A DNA stretch of 64,000 bases from Limnohabitans sp. Rim8. Its GTDB lineage: Bacteria; Pseudomonadota; Gammaproteobacteria; Burkholderiales; Burkholderiaceae_C. The first letter of the stretch is position 1, and each line of letters begins with the position of its first letter. Position numbers and translations under genes: made by a program. Shown here piece after piece: positions 4,482 to 42,402 of the stretch. The stretch is from positions 1 through 64,000 of the forward strand of contig CAMDKK010000011.1 of NCBI GenBank assembly GCA_945901045.1, in the 5' to 3' direction. The notes below the pieces were generated by a model. That model was not told the DNA's origin. It saw nothing but the letters and a program-made list of their open reading frames with translations, and made no database searches.

Positions 4482-5801
4482 CTAACCCATCCACCCCGGC
4501 AGCCAGGTGGCGATGCTCGGCACAAAAAACACAGCTGTCAGCAACAGCAAGCTCATCACCACGTAGGGTGTCACGGCCAGGAAGATGTGGCCCATGGTGA
4601 CCGATGGGGGCGCCACACCGCGCATGGTCATGAGCAACAAACCGTGGGGCGGCAAGAGCAGGCCTAACTGCATGCAAATCAAAAACAACACGCCAAACCA
4701 CACCGTGTCGATGCCCAAGGAATTCACGATGGGCATGAAGATGGGCAGGGTGATCATCATCATGCTGACCTGATCGACAAAGATGCCCAGAAAAATGAGC
4801 ATCAACAGCATGCCCACCAAAATCTGGTTGGCCGACAGGCCATGCCCAGTGATGAATTGCACCAGCCCCGAGCTGGCACCCGAAAAAGACAGAATTTGAG
4901 CAAAGGTCGTGGCCCCCAGAATGATGAACAAAATCATGCCGGAGATGCTGGCTGTGCCCTTGAGGGCCTTGAGCACCGCCTCCCAGCGCAGGACGCGGTA
5001 AAGCGCCGCCAAGAACATGGTTGCAAACGCGCCCAGTGCGGCGCATTCTGTGGGGGTGGCCCAGCCAGCGGCCAGGGCACCCACCACCACGCCAAAAATT
5101 GACAGGGTGGGCAGGACATAGGCCAACAGCAAATGCCAGCGGGCCCAGCCGTGGTGCTGCTCGGCCTCGGTGTCTGCCGGGGCCAAATGAGGGCTGATGC
5201 GCACCCGCACAATGATCCAGGCCACAAAGGCCACCGACAGCAACATGCCCGGTAGGATGCCGCCCAGCAGCAGCTTTGAAATCGATATGCCCGACAGCGA
5301 GCCCAACAACACCGTCAGCGCCGAGGGCGGAATCAGCATGTCCACCGCGCCAATGGCCATGATCGGGCCGGTGGCAATGGTCGGGTGGTAGCCGCGTGCC
5401 AGCATGACGGGCAGCATGAGCGAGCCCAGCATGGCGGTGGTGGCAATCGTGGAGCCCGAGATAGCCGAAAACACCGTGCCCGCCACCACCGCGACCACTG
5501 CCAGTCGCCCCGGAACGCGCACGATGAGCCGCTCAACCCCTTCAATCACTTTGAGGGCCAGGCCGGTGTGAAACAAAATTTCCCCCATCAGCACAAACAG
5601 CGGAATGGGCGTGAGCGCAAAGGCTGTGACCGAGCTGACACTGTTGCGCACCAGTTGAACGAGACCCGGCTCGCCGCCCATGTAAAGCACTGCACCAACG
5701 ATGTTGATGCCCAAAAAAGTCAGCGCCACGGGCATACCCATGAACAGCAGCAAAGTTGAGCCGCCCAACATCAGCCAGGCGGCTATTTGCCAACTGCTCA
5801 T
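4482..5801 (-). CDS. dctM: TRAP transporter large permease subunit DctM
   Basis: A 439-residue inner-membrane protein that forms the transport channel of a tripartite, Na+-dependent TRAP uptake system. The start at 5801 is chosen because GGGAG sits 7 bases upstream and the sequence from MSSWQIAAWLML fits the family start; the open frame continues to 5942 only as overlap with dctQ. Many hydrophobic segments are present, with family-typical stretches such as SGSTIATTAMLGSLMLP (near residue 110) and GAVDMLIPPSALTVLLG (near 150). It is the last gene of dctP-dctQ-dctM. The substrate cannot be read from the sequence. Confidence 0.93.
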   Translation of the reverse strand: MSSWQIAAWLMLGGSTLLLFMGMPVALTFLGINIVGAVLYMGGEPGLVQLVRNSVSSVTAFALTPIPLFVLMGEILFHTGLALKVIEGVERLIVRVPGRLAVVAVVAGTVFSAISGSTIATTAMLGSLMLPVMLARGYHPTIATGPIMAIGAVDMLIPPSALTVLLGSLSGISISKLLLGGILPGMLLSVAFVAWIIVRVRISPHLAPADTEAEQHHGWARWHLLLAYVLPTLSIFGVVVGALAAGWATPTECAALGAFATMFLAALYRVLRWEAVLKALKGTASISGMILFIILGATTFAQILSFSGASSGLVQFITGHGLSANQILVGMLLMLIFLGIFVDQVSMMMITLPIFMPIVNSLGIDTVWFGVLFLICMQLGLLLPPHGLLLMTMRGVAPPSVTMGHIFLAVTPYVVMSLLLLTAVFFVPSIATWLPGWMG

Positions 5802-5844: not shown

Positions 5845-7343
<1,499 letters not shown>

Positions 7344-30929: not shown

Positions 30930-30932
30930 CTG

Positions 30933-31671
30933 CCCTCAAGTATTCCTATCTCGTACCGATAAATAGAAGGTTACAAATCCAATGACTTTGAGTGCGAGCG
31001 TTACCAAATTGAGTGCAAGCATTACCAAGTCCAATGCTTTAGAAGCCAGATTTGTCTTATATTTCTTCGCTCTCTCCTGCCAACTTTGCCAGCCTTTCGG
31101 CCGCAAGGATTTCTGCACTGTTGCCGCAGGACTTTAAGTCTCTCTCCAAACCCCAGCTTGGGGCCATGACGGCCACTCAAATCGGTGCCATTGAGTCAGT
31201 TGATATGGCGGCGTTGAACAAAAGCCAGATCGCTGCCTTCAACCCCCAAGCCCTTGCCAGTGGGCTGCCTACTTTCCTCACAAGCAATACTCTGACTGCT
31301 CTGCCCGCGAATGTCACTTCCGGTTTGACCATCCCCCAAATCGGTCAGTTCAGTACATCCTTGGTCAACGCCAGCATGGTGCAGATGAGCGCAGCCCAGA
31401 TAGGTGGCATCAGCACTTCAGTGATCAGCACCATCGGCAACAATGTGTTGGGCGCCTTGAGCGGCATTCAACTCAATGCGCTGAAACCCCTACAGATAGC
31501 GCAACTCAGCACAGGCCAACTCAGCGGTCTCACGTCAGAGAAGGTCGGCACGCTCTCGGCGGCGTGGCTGAACAAACTCACGGAACCTCAGATTCAGAGC
31601 TTCGCCGCTTCATCTTTCACATTGACCCAACTCAAGGGCTTGGACACTGTCCATGTCAAGGCCTTGTCCGG
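30933..31671 (+). repeat. Direct repeat copy A (leader plus first ~206 codons)
   Basis: This segment is closely similar to copy B at 38086-38803. Shared stretches include CTCGTACCGAT, AATAGAAG, AGAAGCCAGATTTGTCTT and long runs within the coding part. Similarity begins right beside the MATE gene start and ends abruptly at the codons for ALSG. Copy A carries an extra 21 bases, a tandem imperfect duplication at 30988-31029, in its leader. Confidence 0.85.
30988..31029 (+). repeat. Imperfect 21-bp tandem duplication in the leader of copy A
   Basis: Two consecutive 21-base units (30988-31008 and 31009-31029), each of the form TTGAGTGC-AGC-TTACCAA, differ at a few positions. The second repeat locus (copy B) has only one unit. 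The length is a multiple of three and keeps open an upstream frame that starts at ATG 30982. Confidence 0.7.
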
Positions 31672-33469
31672 TACGCAAGTTGCCGCCTTGGGTACAGCCC
31701 AGCTGGGGGTTTTGGCGGCCAAGCAGATTGCCGCCATCGATGCCGACGACGTAGGCATGATGACCGCAAACCAGTTCACCGTCTTGACACAACCGCAGTT
31801 AAAAGCGCTGACCACCGGGCAGGTTGACAAGCTCGACAGCGCCAAAGTCCTGACCATCACCGCCAAAAACATAGCCAGCCTGTCTTACCAACAAATTCAG
31901 CACTTCAGTGACGATGTGGTCACAAACTTGAGCGGACAACAACTCGGGGCACTGACCAAGCAGCAGATCGCCACAGGATTAGATGGTCGCAAGATTGGTT
32001 TGCTCAGCGCAGACCAGGTTAAGAGCTTTAGCAGAATCCAGATTCAGGCACTGACCAACCCTCAAGTTGCTGCACTCTCCGTTGATGACCTGACGGCGCT
32101 CACAAACACACAGTTGACCGCATTCAAGGTCGATCAACTGGGCAGCTTTACCAACGCGCAAATTACATGGGTTTATGACAACAAGCTCAATGCTGGATTT
32201 GCAAAAGGGCAGTTGAATAAGATCAATGAACTCTTTGCGGCCCTTCCGTGGACTCGGCTGGTGGGCGGCACGGGTTTCGATTATGCCTTTTCAGTCGCCG
32301 CCGCTGCAGATGGCTCGGTCTATGTTGCTGGAGGGACCGACGGCTCCATCGACGGCCAGGCCAGCGATGGCGGAGCTGACGGATTTGTCACCAAGTACGC
32401 GGCCGAAGGCACCAAGCAGTGGACCCAGTTGGTCGGCGGCAAATGGGGTTACGATCAGGGTCAATCAGTCGCCACTGCTGCTGATGGCTCCGTCTATGTT
32501 GCTGGAACCACCAGCGTTTCCATCGACGGCCAGGCTAACAATGGCGAACGGGACAGCTTTGTAATGAAGTTCGCGGCCGACGGTACCAAGCAGTGGACCC
32601 GACTGGGCGGTGGCGCGGGTGCCGATTATGGCCAATCAGTCGCCACCGCTGCCGATGGCTCGGTCTATGTTGCTGGAACCACCAACTCCGCATCTATCGA
32701 CGGCCAGGCCAAACTTGGCGGCTCTGACGGCTTTGTCACCAGATATGCTGCCGACGGCACCAAGCAGTGGACCCGGATGGTTGGAGGTACAAGGTGGGGT
32801 ATCGGAAATACAGGTTGGGATTCTGGCTTTTCAGTTGCCACCGCTCCCGATGGCTCGGTCTATGTGGCAGGATTCACCAACGGCTCCATCGACGGCCAGG
32901 CCAACCTTGGCAGCAATGACAGCTTTGTGACTAAATACGCGGCCAACGGCACCAGGCAGTGGACCCGGCTGGCTGGTGGCGAGGGTCAAGACTATGGCAC
33001 TTCAGTCGCCACCGCTGCCGATGGCTCGGTCTATGTGGCTGGATACACCCTCAGCCCCATCGACGGCCAGGCCTACCTTGGTGGCAACTCAGACGGCTTT
33101 GTCATCAAATACGCGGCCGACGGCACCAAGCAGTGGACCCGGTTGGCGGGTGGTACGGGTACCGATCAGGGCAATTCAGTCGCAACTGCTGCCGATGGCT
33201 CGGTCTATGTTGCTGGAGTCACCTCCGGATCTATCGATGGCCAAGCCAACCTTGGCGGCAACTTCGACAGTTTTGTGATCAAGTTCGCGGCCAACGGCAC
33301 AAAGCAGTGGACCCGGCTGGCCGGTGGCACGGGTCAAGATTCTGCCTTTTCGGTCGCTCCTGCTGCTGATGGCTCGGTCTATGTGGCTGGATCCACCAAC
33401 GGCTCCATCGACGGCCAGGCCAACCATGGCCGCGTAGACGGGTTTGTCAGCAAGCTTGTCGTTACATAA
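31052..33469 (+). CDS. Helical-repeat plus seven-blade SBBP beta-propeller protein
   Basis: An 805-residue protein with two repeat regions. Residues 1 to about 398 are degenerate short repeats of the type LSxxQIxALxxxQIAAL, predicted to form a helical solenoid. Residues ~399-805 are seven copies of a ~57-residue unit with the core ADGSVYVAG-TxGSIDGQA and ending DGTKQWTRL, matching beta-propeller (SBBP) repeats, so one complete seven-blade propeller is likely. The start is a TTG at 31052 following an in-frame TAG at 31040; only a weak AGAAG precedes it. No classical signal peptide is seen. Such proteins are usually surface-associated or secreted. Function unknown; the first 206 codons are duplicated at 38.2 kb. 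Confidence 0.72.
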   Translation: MSYISSLSPANFASLSAARISALLPQDFKSLSKPQLGAMTATQIGAIESVDMAALNKSQIAAFNPQALASGLPTFLTSNTLTALPANVTSGLTIPQIGQFSTSLVNASMVQMSAAQIGGISTSVISTIGNNVLGALSGIQLNALKPLQIAQLSTGQLSGLTSEKVGTLSAAWLNKLTEPQIQSFAASSFTLTQLKGLDTVHVKALSGTQVAALGTAQLGVLAAKQIAAIDADDVGMMTANQFTVLTQPQLKALTTGQVDKLDSAKVLTITAKNIASLSYQQIQHFSDDVVTNLSGQQLGALTKQQIATGLDGRKIGLLSADQVKSFSRIQIQALTNPQVAALSVDDLTALTNTQLTAFKVDQLGSFTNAQITWVYDNKLNAGFAKGQLNKINELFAALPWTRLVGGTGFDYAFSVAAAADGSVYVAGGTDGSIDGQASDGGADGFVTKYAAEGTKQWTQLVGGKWGYDQGQSVATAADGSVYVAGTTSVSIDGQANNGERDSFVMKFAADGTKQWTRLGGGAGADYGQSVATAADGSVYVAGTTNSASIDGQAKLGGSDGFVTRYAADGTKQWTRMVGGTRWGIGNTGWDSGFSVATAPDGSVYVAGFTNGSIDGQANLGSNDSFVTKYAANGTRQWTRLAGGEGQDYGTSVATAADGSVYVAGYTLSPIDGQAYLGGNSDGFVIKYAADGTKQWTRLAGGTGTDQGNSVATAADGSVYVAGVTSGSIDGQANLGGNFDSFVIKFAANGTKQWTRLAGGTGQDSAFSVAPAADGSVYVAGSTNGSIDGQANHGRVDGFVSKLVVT
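32249..33466 (+). repeat. Seven tandem repeats of ~170 bp (propeller blades)
   Basis: Seven units, each containing GATGGCTCGGTCTATGT and ATCGACGGCCAGGC, encode the SBBP blades. Near-identity at the DNA level, including silent positions, indicates recent amplification or gene conversion between blades. Blade 4 has a small insertion (WGIGNTG). The units are direct in-frame protein repeats, without spacers. Confidence 0.9.
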
Positions 33470-33964
33470 GCAAGAGGTCATTGAGGAGGCGTCTTGGCAG
33501 GGCCGTATCTTGGCCTTTGGCCAATAGCGTGATCCATTAGGGCGTTCGATTGGGGCGCTCCATTAGGCCGCGCCATCAGTGCGCTCATCCCGCTTTCATG
33601 CTGCGCATCGAGCCCGCTTCGCGCTCTCGCCCCGTGCGGGTTTCAATCGGGGCGAGGCTCTTCAGGGACGTGCAAGCACACCCCTGGCCGCACGGCATAC
33701 CCCACATACAGACGCACAACACATCGGCGTTATGCGTTGACACTTTTAAGCACAAGAGGCCAATTCGTTTTCAGCACATACGAGCCACCTGGTGGCTCTC
33801 AGCAGACATCTCGAACGTGGAGTTCCCTCGTTTTCCCGTAAAAATTACGATAGTGCAACATTCTTTCTCGCACACAACTGGTTGCGGGTTTTGCCTGTTC
33901 GGCAGATGTAGGATCGGCACATGGAACGCGACCGATCTATTCGGTGCCTAGAAGTGAGTGAGTG
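33470..33964. other. Intergenic stretch without a supported gene
   Basis: About 500 bases between the propeller gene and the ATPase remnant. Open frames exist on the plus strand (for example 33550-33951) but lack ribosome sites and any recognisable protein pattern. No terminator hairpin with a T-run, RNA gene or mobile-element end was recognised. Confidence 0.5.
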
Positions 33965-34099
33965 GCCGCGGTCGGGATCAGTTAGCGTCCGATCAACATA
34001 AAGACGGCGGATCGCGTCTTGTTGCCATGCATCTTGCAACTGCGACCATTTGTGTATTTCTTGAAGAATTGTTAAAAAAAGCTCACTTTTTGTGTTCAT
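33965..34099 (-). pseudogene. Remnant of the N-terminus of an AAA-type ATPase gene
   Basis: Reading leftwards from ATG 34099, about 44 codons (ILQEIHKWSQLQD, then WQQDAIRRLYVDRTLTD) resemble the conserved opening of large AAA-type ATPases found in phage-defence and DNA-processing loci, in which a W-x(4)-WQxDALRRL-x(5)-LTxxD pattern is common. After DPD the frame continues to 33845 with Arg/Ser-rich residues of no family character, so the rest of the gene is lost. Its start lies only 30 bases from the outer end of the Tn3-type repeat at 34130, so arrival of that element may have separated the gene from its promoter. Identification rests on pattern memory. Confidence 0.42.
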
Positions 34100-34129
34100 T
34101 ATGCTTCTATCTAGACGCGTGGCGGCATT

Positions 34130-34167
34130 GGGGACGCTGTAGAAAACGGAATTTAAAGCACGTTAAG
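34130..34167 (+). repeat. Left 38-bp Tn3-type terminal inverted repeat
   Basis: It begins GGGGACGCTGTAG at the outside and ends GCACGTTAAG inside. It pairs with 35047-35084 with four mismatches over 38 positions. Confidence 0.8.
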
Positions 34168-34181
34168 CCAATTGCCAATAA

Positions 34182-34194
34182 AACCAACTAGGTT
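34182..34194 (+). promoter_or_regulatory. MqsA-type operator
   Basis: AACC-AACTA-GGTT is an interrupted palindrome just upstream of mqsR (ATG 34206). MqsA of E. coli represses its own operon at AACCT-AGGTT palindromes, and this site fits apart from one base in the left half. It lies 15 bases inside the left Tn3-type repeat, so regulation travels with the element. Confidence 0.6.
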
Positions 34195-34205
34195 AAAATT
34201 CACCC

Positions 34206-34502
34206 ATGGAGAAACCAACACCACATTGCAAGCTGACCGAGGTCAAAGCCTTCGTTGAAGCAGGCAAAGTACGTGCGACCCATTCAGCCAGGCTTGGGGC
34301 CTCGGCATTGGGGTTGGATCTGACTGACATGCTGGCAGTGGTTATGGCGCTCACCACTGCTGACTTTTACAAGAGTATGACCACGTATGGCGATCACACG
34401 GTATGGCAAGACGTGTACCGCCCCAGCACGCAAGCTGGCGATGTGTATCTGAAATTGACGGTCATTGATGATGTGCTGATCGTGTCCTTTAAGGAGCTAT
34501 GA
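34206..34502 (+). CDS. mqsR: MqsR toxin, GCU-specific mRNA interferase
   Basis: A 98-residue RelE-fold endoribonuclease that cleaves mRNA at GC(U/A) in the characterised homologue. The opening MEKPTPHCKLTEVKAFVEAG and the C-terminal DFYKSMTTYGDHTVWQDVYR, then VYLKLTVIDDVLIVSFKE, are near-diagnostic; K, Y and R residues of the active site are kept. The toxin precedes its antitoxin, as in E. coli mqsRA. The gene stop overlaps a possible mqsA start. Confidence 0.93.
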   Translation: MEKPTPHCKLTEVKAFVEAGKVRATHSARLGASALGLDLTDMLAVVMALTTADFYKSMTTYGDHTVWQDVYRPSTQAGDVYLKLTVIDDVLIVSFKEL

Positions 34503-34504
34503 AC

Positions 34505-34906
34505 ATGAAATGTCCTGTTTGCGGTGCGGCCCAATTGATCCACGATACCCGGGACTTGCTCTACACCTACAAAGGCGAGACCACCACCATTTCCGCGGTG
34601 ACGGCTGACTTTTGCCCTGCCTGTGATGAATCCATCACCAACATGATGGAGACCGAACGCGTCATGCGTGAGATGCAAGCGTTCAACAAACAGGTGAACG
34701 CGGCCATTGTTGACCCTAGTTTCATCATCAATGTGCGCAAGAAACTAGACCTTGGGCAGCGCGAGGCCGCCGAAATCTTTGGCGGTGGCATCAATGCTTT
34801 TTCGCGCTATGAGAACGGCAAGACCAAGCCGCCGCTGGCCTTGGTTAAGCTGTTCAAGTTACTGGATCGTCACCCTGATCTGCTCACCGAGATCAGAAGC
34901 GCCTGA
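34505..34906 (+). CDS. mqsA: MqsA antitoxin, zinc-binding HTH repressor
   Basis: About 133 residues from ATG 34505, chosen because AAGGAG lies eight bases upstream; ATG 34499 is too close. Zinc is bound by C3, C6, C37 and C40, the same positions as in E. coli MqsA. The C-terminal Xre-type helix-turn-helix spans about residues 70-125 (LGQREAAEIFGGGINAFSRYENG). It neutralises MqsR and represses the operon. A protein of normal length without defects. Confidence 0.93.
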   Translation: MKCPVCGAAQLIHDTRDLLYTYKGETTTISAVTADFCPACDESITNMMETERVMREMQAFNKQVNAAIVDPSFIINVRKKLDLGQREAAEIFGGGINAFSRYENGKTKPPLALVKLFKLLDRHPDLLTEIRSA

Positions 34907-35046
34907 CTTACTCAAAACGTGCCGTTCTGCCCCCTGCCGAGCGAAAACGATTTTCGAGATCGCTGCGTCCACATCGTCGCTACGCCGCGCCACCTTCTTA
35001 GCAAGCCTTTTCGCAAACCATTGTTTGCAAGAAGCAATCGCCAGAC
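34907..35046. other. Right arm of the Tn3-type element: two short dyads
   Basis: Between mqsA and the right terminal repeat there is no gene. CGAAAA-CGA-TTTTCG (34942-34956) and GCAAAC-CATT-GTTTGC (35013-35028) are perfect dyads. They could be terminators or remnants of a resolution (res) site, but neither carries a proper T-run, and resolvase subsites cannot be confirmed by eye. Confidence 0.35.
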
Positions 35047-35084
35047 CTTAGCGTGTTTTAAATTCCGTTTTCTACGGCGTCACC
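35047..35084 (-). repeat. Right 38-bp Tn3-type terminal inverted repeat
   Basis: On the plus strand it runs from CTTAGCGTGTTTT (inner end) to CTACGGCGTCACC (outer end). It is the reverse complement of the left repeat with four mismatches; the outer end reads GGTG instead of GGGG. Confidence 0.8.
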
Positions 35085-35162
35085 TAGACCCTTCGTGTAA
35101 GGCAAGAAAGGATGGCTTCAACGCATAATCTAACTTAAAAAATTGAATTTTAACAATTTTTG

Positions 35163-35188
35163 TGTTACATTTATTTTAAATGTTACAT
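35163..35188 (+). promoter_or_regulatory. Palindrome overlapping the AbiEi-like start codon
   Basis: TGTTACATTT and AAATGTTACA flank ATTTT, giving a near-perfect dyad that includes the ATG at 35180. No Shine-Dalgarno sequence precedes this ATG, so the mRNA may be leaderless. A dyad here is well placed for autorepression by the first gene product. Confidence 0.45.
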
Positions 35189-36181
35189 GAAGCCCTTCCC
35201 CTGCAAACAATTCGCTATCTGAACCAAGTGTTCGGAGAGGGTGCTGTACGCATGGCGCCTAGTAAGCAATCGGCTCAATTGCCGTATTTCCTTCAGGATA
35301 GCTATGCGGTATTGCATGGCGAATTGCTGGGCCATACGGTCGCGATTGCTTGCGTCAAAGGTCAGCAGCCCCTTGGAGCCAAGCAGTTAATTCAGCATAT
35401 TGAGCGCATGCGCGAGTTGTTGGATGCGCCCGTGATCATCGCCTTACCTCATGTCGCACCTGGCGAGCGAAAACAACTGATTCAGCATGGCATAGCTTTC
35501 GTGGTCCCTGACAGGCAACTGTTTGCCCCTCAGTTGGGTATGATTCTGAGCGAGCGATTTGGAGCAACGCCCCGTCCAGAGCAAGAGCTTGCCAGCCCCG
35601 CAACGCAGGCGCTGCTCATCTGGTTTCTTAACCACCACCCGATCAGTAAAACCTGGCATCCGTTTGTGGAAGCTGCCTCGCTGGGCTACGCCGGGATGAC
35701 GGCGACGCGGGCGATTAGAGAGTTACTCAAATTCAACCTCTTTGAGCTGGAGACTCGTGGACGCGCCAAATTTCTCAACCTAGCGGGAACACGACGAGAG
35801 CTTTGGGAAAAGGCCAAGCCCTACCTGCGCACACCCGTTGTTCGAACCTTGTGGACCTACGACCAACGCATTCTTGAGGTGACTGACGCGCGCTGGGCCG
35901 GCGAGAGCGCGTTGGCGCGAATGACCATGCTCAACGAGCCGCAACAGCAGGTGATTGCAATGACGCCCGAAGCTGCGCAGCAGGCCAAACAAGATGGCAT
36001 TTTTTTCGAGCCGCGAGAGCTTAAGGATGCACTGATCGTTCAAGTGTGGCGCTATTTACCCACCATGCAAGAGAAACAAAAAACAGTCGATCCTCTGTCC
36101 TTGTGGCTCAGCCTTCGGGACAACCGGGATGATCGAATTCAGTTGGCACTGGATGAAATTGAGGAGAAGTTTTTGTGGTGA
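35180..36181 (+). CDS. AbiEi-like antitoxin / transcriptional regulator
   Basis: A 333-residue protein of the type found upstream of AbiEii-like nucleotidyltransferases. The N-terminal half (residues 1-130) is an alpha/beta region; the middle (near 150-205) looks like a winged helix-turn-helix (VEAASLGYAGMTATRAIREL, then LLKFNLFELETRGRAK). The C-terminal part, AGESALARMTML and VDPLSLWLSLRDNRDDRIQLAL, is typical of these regulators and often followed by a toxin gene. The stop overlaps the start of the nucleotidyltransferase. The family is inferred from pattern and pairing. Confidence 0.6.
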   Translation: MLHEALPLQTIRYLNQVFGEGAVRMAPSKQSAQLPYFLQDSYAVLHGELLGHTVAIACVKGQQPLGAKQLIQHIERMRELLDAPVIIALPHVAPGERKQLIQHGIAFVVPDRQLFAPQLGMILSERFGATPRPEQELASPATQALLIWFLNHHPISKTWHPFVEAASLGYAGMTATRAIRELLKFNLFELETRGRAKFLNLAGTRRELWEKAKPYLRTPVVRTLWTYDQRILEVTDARWAGESALARMTMLNEPQQQVIAMTPEAAQQAKQDGIFFEPRELKDALIVQVWRYLPTMQEKQKTVDPLSLWLSLRDNRDDRIQLALDEIEEKFLW

Positions 36182-36912
36182 TTGGGCAGGCGATTTTTCA
36201 AGTATGGTTCAAGGGCTTTGAGGACCAGTACGTCCTGATTGGAGGCGCGGCCGCTTCGATCACCATGAACGAAGCGGGCCAGCCATTCAGAGGAACCAAG
36301 GATCTGGATATTGTTTTGCACGTAGAAGTGCTGACACCAGCATTTGGTCAAAGATTTTGGGAGTTCGTTCAAGCCGGTGGCTATCAGCAAAAGGAGGGCG
36401 ATCCTTTGCAAAAGCCCTGCCTGTATCGGTTTCAAAAGCCATTGGATGAAGGGTTTCCGTACATGCTGGAATTGTTTTCGCGTGTTCCAGATGGTTTGAG
36501 GTTTGTCCCCCCGGGGCACCTCACGCCCATTCCGATGGATGAGCAGATCTCCAGCCTGTCGGCCATTTTGCTGGATTAAGACTATTACCAATTTGTGCTG
36601 AATGGACGCAAGAACAAACACGGTTTGCCTTCCTGGGTGGGAGAGGATCGACTGATCCCACTTAAAGCCTTGGCCTGGATGGAAATGAACGAGCGCGTCC
36701 AACGAGGCGAGACAATTGACTCAAAAAAAATCAACAAACATTTATCAGATGTCGTGCAGCTATCGGCCCTGTTACAGCCTAACCAAGTAATTGCACTGCC
36801 CAATAAAATTACAGCCAATTTGCAGATTTTTGTGCAGGCGGTGGCCGCATTGAATCGCCCTGAGCACACGCAAATTATTGCCAGGCTCGTTCAGGCTTAC
36901 GCGCTGAACTAA
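36175..36912 (+). pseudogene. AbiEii-like nucleotidyltransferase, interrupted by an in-frame stop
   Basis: A GTG at 36175, eight bases after GAGGAG, opens a frame with the nucleotidyltransferase motif YVLIGGAAASITMNEAG and then RGTKDLDIVL, giving the GG...DxD signature (near residues 21-46). At 36577-36579 a TAA interrupts the frame. The same frame continues to 36912 with DYYQFVLNGRKNKHGLP and LIPLKALAWMEMNERVQRGE, the usual C-terminus of this family (total about 245 codons). A single G-to-T change (GAA to TAA) would explain the stop. The toxin is therefore probably dead unless the stop is read through, while its antitoxin gene stays open. Confidence 0.75.
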
Positions 36913-37161
36913 ACGGGGCTCGATCATGAGCACAAGTGATTACGACGTCTGTTGGCGCCGATTGAATCTTGACAGTGAGGGGTGTCATGGATCGCCATTA
37001 TGTAGCCAGGCATGATCGCCATTTAGGAGCCACTTTTTTTGAGTAATTTAGGGCTTTTCGAATGGGTTAATTGACGGTTTATTTTGCCTTTTTTTTGGGC
37101 CGTTTGTAATGTGAATTTTGGCGCCACTTTGGGCGTCCTGTAAGACGGCCTCTGTAAAAAT
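36913..37161. other. Intergenic stretch with a 24-bp-spaced direct repeat
   Basis: No gene is recognised. GATCGCCATT occurs at 36990-36999 and again at 37014-37023, preceded by TGTCATG. Repeated short motifs behind a TGT start resemble the termini of IS21-type elements, so this may be an insertion-sequence remnant, but no matching opposite end or transposase fragment is present. The rest is T-rich and unassigned. Confidence 0.3.
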
Positions 37162-37190
37162 TTGTCAGTACGATGTCCGGACGTTATGAT
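37162..37190 (+). promoter_or_regulatory. Promoter and operator of the DUF1778/GNAT operon
   Basis: TTGTCA (37162-37167) and TATGAT (37185-37190) are separated by 17 bases, a good sigma-70 promoter. The spacer contains the perfect palindrome GTCCGGAC (37175-37182), well placed for repression by the ribbon-helix-helix antitoxin. Confidence 0.65.
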
Positions 37191-37218
37191 GGGTCACTTT
37201 TTAACTTAAAGGTCCACC

Positions 37219-37497
37219 ATGACCGCAGTTGTTCATTCCAAGTCCGAGCGCATCGATGTGCGCGCCAGCACACCCGTGAAGCAGTTGCTTCAGGAAGCCG
37301 CGCGGGTAGCGCATAAAAATGTGAGCGAATTTTTGCTTGAGGCGGGCATCAACGCGGCCAACCAAACTTTGGCTGGCCGCAACCGGTTCGAGTTGAGCGA
37401 CGAGAAGTGGCTGGCTTTTCAGGCGGCCCTTGATCAACCCGTTCGCGCCAAGCCCAAGCTCAAGAAGCTTTTGTCTGAGCCGGGGCTGCTGGATTGA
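37219..37497 (+). CDS. DUF1778 ribbon-helix-helix antitoxin (TacA-like)
   Basis: A 92-residue antitoxin. The DNA-binding N-terminus has SERIDVRASTPVKQLLQEAARVAHKN-type ribbon-helix-helix sequence (residues 8-35), and FELSDEKWLAFQAALDQP (near 57-74) is the toxin-neutralising part typical of DUF1778. It would repress the operon and block the acetyltransferase. The TGA stop overlaps the TTG start of the toxin. Confidence 0.88.
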   Translation: MTAVVHSKSERIDVRASTPVKQLLQEAARVAHKNVSEFLLEAGINAANQTLAGRNRFELSDEKWLAFQAALDQPVRAKPKLKKLLSEPGLLD

Positions 37498-38006
37498 GTT
37501 CGCTGTCCTACGAGCCAGTTCGCAAACTGGCCGCCTCAGACGCCGTCGAGTCCTTTGATTGTGGCCAGAGCGCGCTGAATCAGTTTTTGCAGCGCTTTGC
37601 GCTTGTCAACCAAAAATCCAACAGTGCACAGACTTACGTGAGCTGCCATTCGGGCTCGGTCCTTGGTTTCTACAGTTTGGCGGTGGGCAGCGTTGAGCCA
37701 TCTCATGCGGCACCGCGTGTAACCAAAGGCATTCCACAGCACCCCGTGCCGGTGATGATTTTGGCCAGACTTGCTGTGGACCTTCAGCACCAAGGCGCAG
37801 GGCTTGGCAAAGCACTGCTTAAAGATGCGCTGCTGCGCACTGCACAGGCGGCGGACATTGCCGGGATTCGTGCACTGCTGGTGCACGCCAAGGACGAGCC
37901 TGCCAGACAGTGGTACCTCCATTGGGAGTTTGAACCCAGCCCATCTGATCCGTTCCACCTGTTCCTTTTGATGAAGGACATTAAGGCCATGGTGGTCAAT
38001 GAATGA
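37494..38006 (+). CDS. GNAT-family acetyltransferase toxin (TacT-like)
   Basis: A 170-residue toxin of the class that acetylates aminoacyl-tRNA and stops translation. The start is the TTG overlapping the antitoxin stop. Family signs are FDCGQSALNQFLQRFA (near 21-36), the acetyl-CoA loop HQGAGLGKALLKDALLR (near 100-116) and the catalytic tyrosine region ARQWYLHWEFEPSPSDP (near 142-158). The reading frame is intact, so the module is probably active. Confidence 0.87.
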   Translation: MSSLSYEPVRKLAASDAVESFDCGQSALNQFLQRFALVNQKSNSAQTYVSCHSGSVLGFYSLAVGSVEPSHAAPRVTKGIPQHPVPVMILARLAVDLQHQGAGLGKALLKDALLRTAQAADIAGIRALLVHAKDEPARQWYLHWEFEPSPSDPFHLFLLMKDIKAMVVNE

Positions 38007-38085
38007 GGATGTGCGACTCATCCTTGCGGTCATCGTCGCCTTGAAATTTTTATTCTCGACATGAACGCGGCTCGGACATCGGTAG

Positions 38086-38803
38086 CCCTCAAGAATCCCC
38101 ACCTCGTACCGATGAATAGAAGACCATTCATTCAATGATTTTGAGTAGAAGCATTGCCAAGCTCAACGCTGTAGAAGCCAGATTTGTCTTTTATTTCCTT
38201 GCTTTCGCCTGCCAACTTTGCCAGCCAACCGGCCGCAAGGATTGCTGCACTGTTGCCGCAAGACTTTGAGTCACTCTCCAAAGCCCAACTCGGGGCCATG
38301 ACGGCCGAACAAATCGGTGCGATCGAGGCAGTCGACATGGCGGCGCTCAACAAAAGCCAGATCGCCGCCTTCAGCCCCCAAGCCCTTGCCAGGGGACTGC
38401 CCACATACCTCGCAAATAATCACCTGGCTGCACCACACACGAACGTCACATCCGGTTTGACCAGCACCCAAATCGGCCAGTTCAAGGCAGCCTTGGTCGA
38501 CGTGATTTTGTCGCAGATGATCCCAGCCCAGATAGGTGCCATCAATCCTGCGGTGATCAGAAACATCGACAACGGTGTTTTGCGAAGCTTGAGCGGCATG
38601 CAACTGAATGCGCTGCAAGCCCTTCAAATAGCGCAACTCAGCCCAGACCAACTCAGCCACTTGAAGCCCGAGCAGGTCGGCACGCTCTCGGCGGCGTGGC
38701 TGAACAAACTGACGGATCCTCAAATTCAGAGCTTCGCCGCCTCATCCGTGAAACTGACCCAACTCCAGGGTCTGGACACCGCCCACGTCACGGCCTTGTC
38801 TGG
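38086..38803 (+). repeat. Direct repeat copy B (leader plus first ~206 codons)
   Basis: This is the counterpart of 30933-31671, in the same orientation and about 7.1 kb away. The leader lacks one 21-base unit. Similarity ends at TTGTCTGG, where a FliK-like segment begins; the expected continuation appears at 40228. Confidence 0.85.
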
Positions 38804-40118
38804 ACGTGCAGCGACGCTCAACATACAGGGCCCCTTACTGGCGATTGCCACCCCGGTCGCCAAAGAATTGAATCTGCAAGAAGGCCAGGTCATTCAAGCC
38901 GCATTTCGATGGACCGCGGGCCAACCCGAACTCGTCCTCAAAGGTCGGGTTATCAATCTGCCCCCCGCCAACCTGGGACAAATGGCGCCCATCCTGTGGT
39001 TGAAGGTGGTGCAAACCCCGCAAGGCGGATGGGCCCTGCAACCGACAGCGGCTCCGCCCACACCAGCAATACCGGGCGCGAAACCGGGCGCGACACCGGG
39101 CGCGACACCGGTCGCGACACCGACCGCGACAACGTCCGCGATAACGACCGCGATACCGACCGCGACACCGACCGCGACATCCTCCACACAAGCCCTGCAG
39201 TATGTGGCGCCATTGTCGATGCCCACCAAGGCCTCCGGCTCGCCAGTGGCCAGCCCCACACAGGCCGTTAACCCGGCGGTCTATTCGCGCACGGCCAATT
39301 TGCTTTTCCGGCCCCCTGGCACGTCAGACGTGTCTCAGCTTTTTCGTCCTGGCACCTTGGACGGCTTGCTCCAAACCTTGGCCCGGCCTGACCTGCAGTC
39401 CCAATGGCGGGGCATGCAACTGTCGATGGCACAACTCAGTCCGCAAGCCATCTCCAATGCCTTGACCAGCGCCGTAGGTGCCGAAGTTTGGTTGGCCCGG
39501 GGCATGGCCACCAGCCCATCGGATCCCAAGCAGTTTTTGCGGCGTGTGATTCAAGCCATTCAAAGCGCCGATAAAGGCGCCATCGGTGGGGTCCAGCGGA
39601 ACGCATCGGACAACAATTTTGACCCCTTGGCATCCCTTGAAAAATCGACAGACTCCGCCCCGAAATTGGCCACCTTAGCCCAAATACAACATGCGGTCGA
39701 AGAGTTGGAATCGACCCAAGTGCAGGCGGTGCAAGCCCAGGCGCAAGGCGACGTTTTGTTTCGCATGACCTTGCCCTTTTTCGATGCCAACCCGGTGGAG
39801 CTGGTGTTTCGCAAAGAGCCACGCGGACCAGGGCAACCGCCTTTGCTCACTGTGAATGTCCATTCACGCAGCGACATTTTTGGCCCTGTTTGGCTGAAAA
39901 CGCAAATTGAAGGCAGTCAGCACATTGACCTGACCATGTGGGCCGAGAAAAGCGATGTGGCCAGCGCCGCCCGTATGCGCGCCAGCGAACTGGGCAGCCA
40001 ACTCCAAGGGGCGGGTTTGAGTATGCGCAGCTTCAAGATCGTGCACGGTGCACGCCCCGAATCGCCGCCCGACTTTGTCCCCACGGGCCGCGGCCGGGTG
40101 TTGGACATGTCGGCCTGA
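38184..40118 (+). CDS. Chimeric protein: helical-repeat N-terminus fused to a FliK-like C-terminus
   Basis: A 644-residue open frame starting at a TTG equivalent to that of the 31-kb gene. Residues 1 to about 206 match that gene's solenoid closely, up to ALSG. Residues ~207-644 are unrelated: a beta-rich part (LNIQGPLLAIATPVAKEL), a Pro/Thr/Ala linker (residues ~290-335), and a C-terminal domain (near 520-625) with LFRMTLPFFDANPVELVF, PVWLKTQIEGSQHIDLTMWA and LGSQLQGAGLSMRSFKIVHG, resembling the flagellar hook-length control (FliK) C-terminal fold. The join is in frame. The FliK family call is moderate; the chimera itself is plain from the paralogue. Confidence 0.68.
   Translation: MSFISLLSPANFASQPAARIAALLPQDFESLSKAQLGAMTAEQIGAIEAVDMAALNKSQIAAFSPQALARGLPTYLANNHLAAPHTNVTSGLTSTQIGQFKAALVDVILSQMIPAQIGAINPAVIRNIDNGVLRSLSGMQLNALQALQIAQLSPDQLSHLKPEQVGTLSAAWLNKLTDPQIQSFAASSVKLTQLQGLDTAHVTALSGRAATLNIQGPLLAIATPVAKELNLQEGQVIQAAFRWTAGQPELVLKGRVINLPPANLGQMAPILWLKVVQTPQGGWALQPTAAPPTPAIPGAKPGATPGATPVATPTATTSAITTAIPTATPTATSSTQALQYVAPLSMPTKASGSPVASPTQAVNPAVYSRTANLLFRPPGTSDVSQLFRPGTLDGLLQTLARPDLQSQWRGMQLSMAQLSPQAISNALTSAVGAEVWLARGMATSPSDPKQFLRRVIQAIQSADKGAIGGVQRNASDNNFDPLASLEKSTDSAPKLATLAQIQHAVEELESTQVQAVQAQAQGDVLFRMTLPFFDANPVELVFRKEPRGPGQPPLLTVNVHSRSDIFGPVWLKTQIEGSQHIDLTMWAEKSDVASAARMRASELGSQLQGAGLSMRSFKIVHGARPESPPDFVPTGRGRVLDMSA
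39071..39178 (+). repeat. Nine 12-bp tandem repeats in the Pro/Thr linker
   Basis: Nine units of ACCG(G/A)(G/C)CGCGAC type encode P-G-A-T / P-T-A-T tetrapeptides in the linker of the chimeric gene. The length (a multiple of 12) keeps the frame, so copy-number change would alter linker length only. Confidence 0.85.
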
Positions 40119-40227
40119 ATGTGGACTCAAAAATCCCAACTGAACTTTATACGGCGGTGACGGTTATTTTTTTCTTGGGTGTTTGGGCTCAAAGGCATAC
40201 GCCCTGGCGACGAGAAGAATTAGACTT
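40119..40227 (+). other. Tail of the inserted FliK-like segment
   Basis: About 110 bases after the chimeric stop codon belong to neither repeat copy. A GTG at 40121 opens a short frame with a hydrophobic stretch (LYTAVTVIFFLGVWAQ) that ends without a stop before the repeat remnant. It may be the start of a gene that followed the FliK-like gene at its source locus; it is not complete enough to name. Confidence 0.35.
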
Positions 40228-40295
40228 CCGGAACACAAGTTGCCGCCTTAGTACAGCCCAGCAAGGGGTTTTGTCGGCCAAAAAGATGGACTTGA
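40228..40295 (+). pseudogene. Remnant of the helical-repeat gene after the FliK-like insertion
   Basis: The sequence from CCGG at about 40228 matches 31668-31735 of the intact gene: AAGTTGCCGCCTT, GTACAGCCCAG, GGGGTTTTG and CGGCCAA are shared in order, with one base missing after CCTTA. In the intact gene this follows directly on the ALSG codons where copy B breaks off. The two halves of copy B are thus separated by ~1.43 kb of FliK-like DNA, and the remainder has decayed. Confidence 0.75.
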
Positions 40296-40342
40296 AGTCA
40301 AGCACCATTGCTTTTTTAAAGCTCTGTAGTGAACATTGCGTA

Positions 40343-40361
40343 TATAACGCCTCGCGTTATA
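40343..40361 (+). promoter_or_regulatory. higBA operator palindrome
   Basis: TATAACGC-CTC-GCGTTATA is a perfect 8-bp dyad 12 bases upstream of the toxin ATG. Sites of the form TAACGC-3-GCGTTA are the known targets of HigA/GraA antitoxins. It overlaps plausible -10 sequences, so binding would shut off the operon. Confidence 0.75.
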
Positions 40362-40372
40362 CAATTGCATTC

Positions 40373-40651
40373 ATGATTCAAAGCTTCAAGTGCAGCGATA
40401 CACAAACCCTGTTCAGTGGTACATCGGTTGCCCGAATTATTAATTTCCAGGCGGTTGCAGAGCGAAAGTTGCAGATGCTCCACCGGGCTACCCGCTTAGA
40501 TGACTTACGCATACCGCCCAACAACAAATTGGAAGCCTTGAAGCGAGACCGTAAAGGGCAGCACAGCATTCGCATCAATGACCAATGGCGCGTGCGCTTT
40601 GTTTGGACAGGTAGCAATGCCACCAAGGTTGAAATTGTGGATTACCACTGA
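40373..40651 (+). CDS. higB: HigB-type toxin (RelE superfamily mRNA interferase)
   Basis: A 92-residue ribosome-dependent mRNA interferase. The opening IQSFKCSDTQTLFSG, the middle ERKLQMLHRATRLDDLRIPPNNKLEAL and the end GQHSIRINDQWRVRFVW are diagnostic of the HigB/GraT group. The start at 40373 follows the operator closely; the frame continues far upstream (39938) only by chance overlap with the chimeric gene. The toxin precedes its antitoxin, the usual hig order. Confidence 0.93.
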   Translation: MIQSFKCSDTQTLFSGTSVARIINFQAVAERKLQMLHRATRLDDLRIPPNNKLEALKRDRKGQHSIRINDQWRVRFVWTGSNATKVEIVDYH

Positions 40652-40663
40652 AGGAGAATGAAC

Positions 40664-40975
40664 ATGGCGAACATCATCAATGGAATGCGTCCGATACACC
40701 CAGGCGAGGTGTTGCGCGAAGAGTTTTTACAACCTTTGGGCATGACTCCGCACGCACTGGCCATGGCTTTGCAAGTGCCGCCCCCACGCATCAATGACGT
40801 TGTGCGCGAGCGACGCGCCGTAACGGTGGATACGGCCTTACGCCTGTCCAAATACTATGGCACCAGTGCAGAGTTTTGGATGGGCCTGCAAACCGACTTT
40901 GACATGGCTAAGGCACGCGCCACGATGACCGATGCACTGTCGCGCATCGTCAGCCGAGATGCGATTTTGAATTGA
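40664..40975 (+). CDS. higA: HigA-type antitoxin, Xre-family HTH
   Basis: About 103 residues from ATG 40664 (AAGGAG seven bases upstream; ATG 40658 is too close). It starts with MRPIHPGEVLREEFLQPLGM, the HigA hallmark, with a helix-turn-helix near residues 25-60 (MTPHALAMALQVPPPRINDVV) and YYGTSAEFWMGLQ near 68. It binds HigB and represses the operon at the upstream palindrome. Confidence 0.94.
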   Translation: MANIINGMRPIHPGEVLREEFLQPLGMTPHALAMALQVPPPRINDVVRERRAVTVDTALRLSKYYGTSAEFWMGLQTDFDMAKARATMTDALSRIVSRDAILN

Positions 40976-41079
40976 CGCAAGTGGAGGCTGAATTGAAGGC
41001 GAGTTGGGTGAATGTGGATGAGACTGACAGGGGCAAGATCAAACGGTCAAAATGCGCCGTGGTCATACGCGGGCCTAGA

Positions 41080-41154
41080 TGGTGCCGCCGACAGGAATCG
41101 AACCTGTATTTAGCGCTTAGGAGGCACTCGTTCTATCCATTGAACTACGGCGAC
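41080..41154 (-). tRNA. tRNA-Arg (anticodon CCU)
   Basis: Reading right to left, the acceptor stem GTCGCCG pairs with CGGCGGC (one G-U). The D-arm is GTTCAATGGATAGAAC, the anticodon loop contains CCT in GCCTCCTAAG, the T-arm is CAGGTTCGATTCCTG and CCA is encoded. All four stems can be drawn; the length is 75 with CCA. It marks the right edge of the accessory block and is of a type often used as an integration site. Confidence 0.95.
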
Positions 41155-41208
41155 AGTGATCAATTATTTTACAGGGCGATCTTTGTCGCACTCAGCCGGC
41201 GCAAGAGA

Positions 41209-41505
41209 TTAACCATCGTAGCCATCGAACAGCGCCAAGTGGCCTTCAGAATTGTTTTGTCGCAGGGGCAAAATGGCTTGGTATTCAGGGCTGTGGTACC
41301 AAGTCTCTGCCGACGCGCGGCTGGCGAATTCGATCACGACACGGCGAGTCCCTTGGGCTTTGCCTTCCAACTGGGTCGATGTCCCCCCACGAACCAGATA
41401 TTTGCCGCCGTATTGCGCGATGGTGGCGGGCACCTTTTGCCCGTACAGTGCATACGCTTCGGGGTTGTGGACGGTGATTTCTCCAACGATGTAGGCTTTG
41501 GTCAT
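41209..41505 (-). CDS. DUF1330 family protein
   Basis: A 98-residue ferredoxin-like-fold protein of the DUF1330 (dimeric alpha/beta barrel) family: AYIVGEITVHNPEAYALYG (residues 4-22), GGKYLVRGG (near 33) and ASRASAETWYHSPEYQAI (near 60). No enzymatic role is established. It stands alone next to the tRNA gene. Confidence 0.85.
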   Translation of the reverse strand: MTKAYIVGEITVHNPEAYALYGQKVPATIAQYGGKYLVRGGTSTQLEGKAQGTRRVVIEFASRASAETWYHSPEYQAILPLRQNNSEGHLALFDGYDG

Positions 41506-41615
41506 GGTGGTCCTCAGGGGCTGACTTCACAAAGAAAGAGACATTTTTGAACAATGCCTCTGGCGTAAAACGTCTAATTGTGCACAATGGATCATTTTTG
41601 ACCACAGAGGTGATT

Positions 41616-42383
41616 ATGTCGGTTCATTCTTTGCATCCTGTCGGCTCTTCTGATCCCGTTCACCGCGCCAAAGTGCATTTGGCTGCTTCGCTGCGCATGG
41701 CGGTGAGCGATGAACTCGAAGAAGGCATCGACAACCATTTCACCGTGAAGGTGCCTGGCCGCGAGGGTCAGTATTTGGTCTTGCCTTTCGGTCTGCATTG
41801 GTCTGAAGCCCGCGCCAGCGACATGATCGTCTTTGACGAAGAGGGCCGCACCCTCGAAGGCCATGGCGTGGTGGAGTTGTCTGCGCAATGCATTCATGCG
41901 CCCTTGCACCGCATCAGCGGCGCTAACGTGGTCTTGCACACCCACCAGCATTGGGCCATGGCGCTGAACATGCTGCAAGACAACCGCTTGTTGTCGGCCA
42001 GCCAAACGGCGGCATTTTTTGACGGGCAAATTGCCTATGACGACCACTACCAGGGCTTGGCCAGTTCGGTCACAGAAGGCGAACGCTTGGCCGCGTGCTT
42101 GGGCGATAAGCCGATTTTGTTCATGAAAAACCATGGCGTGGTCGTGGTCGGTGAAACCGTGGCGCAAGCCTATCGCCGCATGTACAAACTCGAGCGGGTC
42201 TGCCGTGCGCAGGTGATGGCTTTGGCCACGGGGCAAGCCATTGAAGTGCTCAGTCCTGAAGTGATTGCACGAGTCAACACCCCATCGTCCCACGACCGCC
42301 ACCCGCGTGCCGAGCGTGAGCGGATGTTCTTTGAAGCCCGTATGCGGGTGTTGGACCGCGATTTGCCAGGCTACGCGGATTGA
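41616..42383 (+). CDS. Class II aldolase/adducin family protein
   Basis: A 255-residue protein starting at ATG 41616 after GAGGTG; an upstream ATG at 41547 has no ribosome site. The class II aldolase/adducin domain covers residues ~25-235, with the substrate-binding loop GIDNHFTVKVPG (near 40), zinc ligands in HTHQHWAMAL (near 109) and a third His in FMKNHGVVVVG (near 173). Relatives act on sugar phosphates or related aldols; the substrate is not inferable. Confidence 0.85.
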   Translation: MSVHSLHPVGSSDPVHRAKVHLAASLRMAVSDELEEGIDNHFTVKVPGREGQYLVLPFGLHWSEARASDMIVFDEEGRTLEGHGVVELSAQCIHAPLHRISGANVVLHTHQHWAMALNMLQDNRLLSASQTAAFFDGQIAYDDHYQGLASSVTEGERLAACLGDKPILFMKNHGVVVVGETVAQAYRRMYKLERVCRAQVMALATGQAIEVLSPEVIARVNTPSSHDRHPRAERERMFFEARMRVLDRDLPGYAD

Positions 42384-42402
42384 AGGGGCGTGGTGAGCAG
42401 CT

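Follow-up and report, generated by a model that had tools for sequence, protein, structure and literature searches.

How a FliK-like coding segment came to lie in frame within the second copy of a helical-repeat gene, and whether the resulting hybrid is a gene or only debris, are the questions raised by the locus analysed here. The window (the whole stretch of DNA analysed, 64,000 nucleotides of Limnohabitans sp. Rim8) contains two ALTTAQ-repeat genes, and the reading frame of the second ends as a FliK-like protein. We conclude that the hybrid is a real gene fusion, found in two species, that it most likely arose by duplication within the genome, and that it has apparently been kept.

Structure and source of the hybrid gene

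The first ALTTAQ copy (31052..33469, forward strand) is uninterrupted and encodes 805 amino acids, with ALTTAQ repeats (Pfam PF20080, 86.4 bits) and SBBP beta-propeller repeats (PF06739, 73.5 bits). The second is an open reading frame of 644 codons (38184-40118, forward strand) that starts with TTG. Its ALTTAQ half (38184..38803, approximately 206 codons) clears the PF20080 cut-off (29.7 vs 26.4 bits), and residues 1-214 of the chimera are 71% identical to the product of the gene at 31052. The frame shared with the first copy stops at ALSG (residues 204-207), and from there the protein is FliK-like; this half (38804..40118) corresponds to a native FliK-like protein from about codon 9-11 through its own stop. 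The first copy, unlike the chimera, runs on into more repeats and the propellers. A preliminary description of this DNA had placed the reading frame, its stop, and the 5' part common to the two genes in the same way.

The remainder of the old gene can be recognized to the right of the insert. Downstream of the chimera is the broken tail of an FlhB-like gene (40119..40228, forward strand), the gene that comes after the native FliK-like gene, and then a remnant of the ALTTAQ gene (40227..40287, forward strand). The remnant aligns to 31667-31728 with one base deleted and a score of 77; when 500 shuffled versions were scored against the entire first gene, the maximum was 31 and the mean 19.9. It begins 108 bases past the chimera's stop codon, and the interruption amounts to 1423 bases. 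These values agree with the earlier estimates (about 110 bases and about 1.43 kb, with the old gene resuming near 40228 minus one base) and support the proposal that an insertion gave rise to an in-frame chimera.

The genome of the window (G000; 4.0 Mb in 126 contigs) contains a close match to the insert at 63-64 kb on another contig, C2. Window positions 38795-39064 are 85.0% identical in DNA to positions 4511-4783 of this flagellar locus (L004), and positions 39185-40121 are 89.6% identical to 4796-5732. A third segment, 40113-40228, is 81% identical to 5948-6062, the tail of the gene next to the native FliK-like gene. This neighbor resembles the C-terminal part of FlhB (PF01312, 57.3 bits) and is followed by flgN and flgM. 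The native FliK-like gene has no ALTTAQ part, and its FlhB-like partner is whole there but broken at the chimera. The native pair is the closest source found, and the matches to both of its genes indicate that the insert was copied from the flagellar cluster; 224 bases of the native order are absent between the insert's two parts, at a 9-base overlap. The insert, previously called foreign, is derived from a gene 85-90% identical in the same genome. It had also been described as a FliK-like protein, which is correct for most of its length but leaves out the FlhB-like 3' tail (40113-40228).

No transposase bounds the insert, which is nearly all fliK-like and flhB-like sequence; the rest is an expanded linker. 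Terminal inverted repeats of 20 bases or more, the minimum length scanned, do not bound it either, as none of the seven pairs found does so. The expanded linker is an in-frame array of 12-base repeats (39043..39191, forward strand) that is Thr/Pro/Ala-rich and missing from the 12 native proteins aligned.

We use the name FliK-like because both the chimera and the gene that was copied fall below the PF02120 cut-off of 29.8 bits (21.4 bits, a weak match, for the FliK-like half of the chimera; 22.9 bits for the native source gene). Another PF02120 match in the same genome, at C2:50357, scores higher than this pair (70.5 bits) and is likely the canonical fliK. AlphaFold2, run on the chimera and six relatives, gave an unusable model (mean pLDDT 34.7). 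In a search of solved structures, HeliScrew4 (9zem) matches residues 4-70 (E 1.5e-8); the nine other matches listed are weaker, and there is no FliK structure among the ten.

The fusion in a second species

The preliminary description had considered that the fused architecture might be an ordinary gene of many relatives. Among the matches listed, however, the fusion occurs in two of 90 genus genomes, that of the window and one other (G074), and the genus searches gave no further FliK-like fusion of an ALTTAQ gene among those matches. In G074, a contig (C168) carries a MATE gene followed by the chimera, whose frame is open to the contig end. The two chimeras are 84% identical in protein over residues 1-288, and the hybrid joint, GGCCTTGTCTGGACGTG, is identical in both genomes. 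In G074 the chimera directly follows the MATE gene, the position held by the first copy in the window, which implies that ALTTAQ copies have been gained or lost at this locus.

Only the left part of the G074 chimera is present on a contig. Its right side was not found with window positions 39040-42400 as the query against G074; the matches were to the native FliK-like gene on C29, a contig that begins right past the FliK-like stop, and to C194 from window position 41549 on. A near-identical gene pair might account for these contig breaks. On the G074 contig (L036 1-561, minus strand), an in-frame 348-base unit that spans the fusion joint (repeat end plus FliK start) starts again. The second unit is 93% identical to the first over the 213 bases present, and the contig ends inside it.

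Comparison of the two chimeras suggests that the reading frame is constrained. Their ALTTAQ halves differ by 29 synonymous and 32 nonsynonymous changes (dS 0.222, dN 0.072, dN/dS 0.32). Three neighboring genes in the same two genomes have dS values of 0.26, 0.31, and 0.41 and dN/dS of 0.10-0.12. The dS of the chimera is thus compatible with vertical descent, and its higher ratio indicates looser constraint than in the neighbors. In the FliK half, 36.5 synonymous and 37.5 nonsynonymous changes are private to the chimera of the window (ratio approximately 0.34); the native FliK-like branches have ratios of 0.115 (G000) and 0.203 (G074). Neutrality is rejected by a simple equal-rate binomial for the ALTTAQ half (P 7e-5) and for the FliK half (P 1e-5, with sites assumed to be 3 to 1). 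The FliK half is less constrained than the native copies, with Fisher P values of 0.022 and 0.029. Of the 223 columns that do not vary among seven native proteins, 13 are altered in the chimera. When three of the native copies are each compared with the other six, the corresponding numbers are 11 of 234 (G000), 14 of 237 (G083), and 2 of 225 (G074), so that the chimera is well above the native gene of G074. Overall, both halves of the chimera look constrained, although less than native copies (0.12-0.20), and the hybrid has the look of a gene that has been retained, not of debris.

Several processes could affect these values. Conversion could imitate constraint in both halves, with native genes as donors in the FliK half and the first copy as donor in the ALTTAQ half, and some of the FliK-branch changes could be older than the copying event. 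The survival of the frame is by itself weak evidence, since the neutral probability of acquiring no stop codon is 0.08 for 74 substitutions or 0.26 for 37 in the FliK half, and 16% in the repeat half. The chimeric protein, previously called potential, is nonetheless a stronger candidate now, given the joint shared with G074 and a frame that appears constrained. We suspect that the chimera is expressed.

Origin of the fusion

The locus lies in a region of variable content. The MATE gene and the tRNA-Arg(CCT) gene are separated by approximately 0.04-1.2 kb between aligned ends in all five relatives compared (G080, G081, G083, G057, and G082). The window holds about 10 kb there (30930..41079), comprising the two ALTTAQ genes together with MqsRA, TacA/GNAT, and HigBA toxin-antitoxin modules. 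A 38-base inverted repeat (34130-34167 and 35047-35084, 89% complementary) flanks MqsRA like a small mobile cassette. At 36175-36912 there is a frame interrupted by a stop, nucleotidyltransferase-like by reading, neither part of which has a Pfam match; a 333-aa gene that also has no Pfam match adjoins it. A PADLOC scan of eight island proteins gave no match. In G080, the gap contains a different open reading frame (L052 4192-5289, alcohol dehydrogenase-like by reading), and the MATE-tRNA-Arg gap therefore seems to be a general insertion spot.

We consider it probable that a FliK-like segment of the flagellar cluster was copied into an ALTTAQ gene, that the fusion arose before the split from G074 and has been maintained, and that conversion continues. 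The copied DNA would include the FliK-like gene and no less than the tail of the adjacent FlhB-like gene, and its destination would be the duplicated ALTTAQ-repeat gene closer to the tRNA. On the left, the joint falls in a short near-match between CTTGTCCGG (repeat gene) and CTTGCCTGG (FliK-like gene), which would be in frame by chance, and microhomology-mediated or illegitimate recombination at this near-match could have made the transfer. The ALTTAQ-FliK product would have been retained since before the two species separated, and the FlhB-like and ALTTAQ sequences past the FliK stop would have decayed. The duplicated FliK stretch may still swap sequence with the native gene through gene conversion. 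The fusion joins known parts in an architecture seen nowhere else in the searches made, and to that extent it is new; the mechanism postulated here is of a known kind.

A skeptical reading is that the chimera is a neutral, dead by-product of the insertion, a pseudogene-in-waiting whose frame is intact by luck. The pieces to the right of the FliK stop are indeed broken, the FliK half is relaxed relative to native copies, and a neutral frame would have escaped stop codons with a chance of 8-26% (FliK half) or 16% (repeat half). Even so, dN/dS is approximately 0.32-0.34 in both halves, neutrality is rejected for each, and the linker length differences observed are in frame; we regard a dead by-product as unlikely. 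It is somewhat easier to imagine, though still doubtful, that insertion happened twice, with each species' own FliK-like gene entering at a recombination-prone near-match. At two-state sites in the N-terminal part of the FliK region, 11 pair each chimera with the native gene of its own genome and 2 pair the chimeras with each other, a split that by itself favors two insertions. Likewise, in this region the G074 chimera differs from its own native gene by a dS of 0.13, whereas the two native genes differ from each other by 0.43. The ALTTAQ halves, however, are sisters (dS 0.22 between them and 0.38-0.39 to the first copy, which falls outside), the hybrid joint is the same, and conversion requires just one insertion. 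One insertion with later gene conversion is compatible with both the FliK split and the ALTTAQ grouping, making two insertions less likely, and we infer a single origin plus conversion.

Two further explanations concern where the fusion came from and whether it is there at all. An island carrying a ready-made fusion might have been acquired horizontally from a related species, and a site beside tRNA-Arg, with toxin-antitoxin genes and a content that varies in relatives, is where one might look for such an event. Yet a Pfam scan of island proteins shows no integrase, and sequence of the tRNA region does not recur exactly at 29-41 kb over more than 11 bases (the longest match, an 11-mer, is inverted). 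The dS of the chimera is within or below the range of flanking genes, and 80% coverage of the fusion is reached by none of the 36 matching plasmid records. We consider horizontal transfer of the fusion very unlikely. An assembly artefact seems highly improbable. The fragmentation of G000 into 126 contigs and the end of the G074 contig within a repeat would be consistent with one, and an assembly error is possible in G074, but the insert has diverged by 10-15% from the native gene and the joint is common to two separate assemblies.

Flagellar context and possible function

Sequences upstream of the ALTTAQ genes hint at flagellar regulation. A sigma-28 (FliA)-like box, TCAAGTAT-N11-ACCGATAA (30936..30962, forward strand), is upstream of the first ALTTAQ gene and ranks 2 of 127,948 positions in the window. 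The chimera has a homologous, weaker box, TCAAGAAT-N11-ACCGATGA (38089..38115, forward strand), which aligns with the other two copies and ranks 19 of 127,948; the box of the G074 chimera would rank 5 on the window's scale. The matrix was built from nine sites chosen among 33 upstream regions of flgM, fliD, and flagellin genes of the genus (6 of 6, 2 of 4, and 1 of 23 regions, respectively), and all nine training sites outscore the boxes of the first copy and the chimera. The top-ranked position, 51841 on the minus strand, has no open reading frame of at least 120 aa starting on that strand within approximately 990 bases. Because of this hit without an evident gene, the single site among 23 flagellin regions, and a matrix drawn from 9 of 33 regions, we treat the boxes as a hint. 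An E. coli-type consensus, with three mismatches allowed, matches the window twice (0.26 expected), and one match is the box of the first copy. In the same window scan this consensus did not match the chimera's box, and it has no match at three mismatches in L036, the locus of the G074 chimera. For the first copy, the box is no more than suggestive of sigma-28 control.

ALTTAQ genes of this genus are often found near flagellin genes. A flagellin gene is within 10 kb at 14 of 22 loci (12 of 17 genomes); the 17 were sampled from 25 of 90 genus genomes with ALTTAQ matches at E 1e-6, with loci picked among the matches listed, and five of the eight loci without a nearby flagellin are on contigs shorter than 8 kb. 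The third ALTTAQ gene of the Rim8 genome sits between two flagellin genes. Long ALTTAQ-repeat genes with flagellin neighbors include L038 5220-10021 (on C2) and examples among L064-L085. Relatives of a TPR-like gene occur at 9 of the 22 loci, and relatives of a regulator that we take to be FleQ-like occur at 8.

We considered whether ALTTAQ proteins are a flagellar family in general. We rejected this reading: among loci picked from the matches listed, a flagellin is within 10 kb at 2 of 19 outside the genus (13 other genomes of the order), as opposed to 14 of 22 inside. Two of four loci outside the genus that were examined with Pfam (10 proteins) adjoin type I secretion genes. An ABC transporter and HlyD lie beside the ALTTAQ genes at L101 and L103, and L101 also has an outer-membrane efflux protein. 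With type I secretion genes nearby and the flagellin link rare outside the genus, the thread shared by these loci may be export and not the flagellum.

In Salmonella, the N-terminal part of FliK is a ruler with an export signal, and the C-terminal part binds FlhB (PMC6972891). The chimera is similar to FliK (PF02120; PMC6972891) in its layout, in which an N-terminal region, a Pro-rich linker, and a C-terminal region follow one another much as ruler, linker, and switch do, and its C-terminal region aligns with a portion of the Flg_hook profile. In contrast to FliK, the chimera is below the Pfam cut-off, has a 206-residue ALTTAQ front, and belongs to a genome with a better-scoring fliK elsewhere. 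It is also outside the flagellar cluster with toxin-antitoxin genes as neighbors, whereas the source copy is inside the cluster. The literature searched on ALTTAQ, HeliScrew, and FliK fusions yielded no mention of an ALTTAQ-FliK fusion.

If the Salmonella scheme applies, the chimera would amount to an extended version of a FliK-type protein whose front end has been exchanged. Judging from its domains, it could have a flagellum-related role in which an exported repeat domain is joined to a FliK-type domain with FlhB-type proteins as possible partners; the boxes and the flagellin genes near many ALTTAQ loci of the genus provide a hint of such a role. A more specific proposal, which we think quite unlikely, is that it is a working accessory of the late flagellar regulon. 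The exported helical-repeat arm would replace the start of the ruler to make a second, longer length-or-switch protein, and conversion with the native gene would keep the switch half compatible with FlhB-type partners.

ALTTAQ-repeat proteins are now tied to a flagellar neighborhood in this genus. Both parent genes, the point of fusion, and the decayed sequence past the FliK stop can be seen, as can the left joint in a second species, so that the birth and upkeep of this chimera can be dated and tested.
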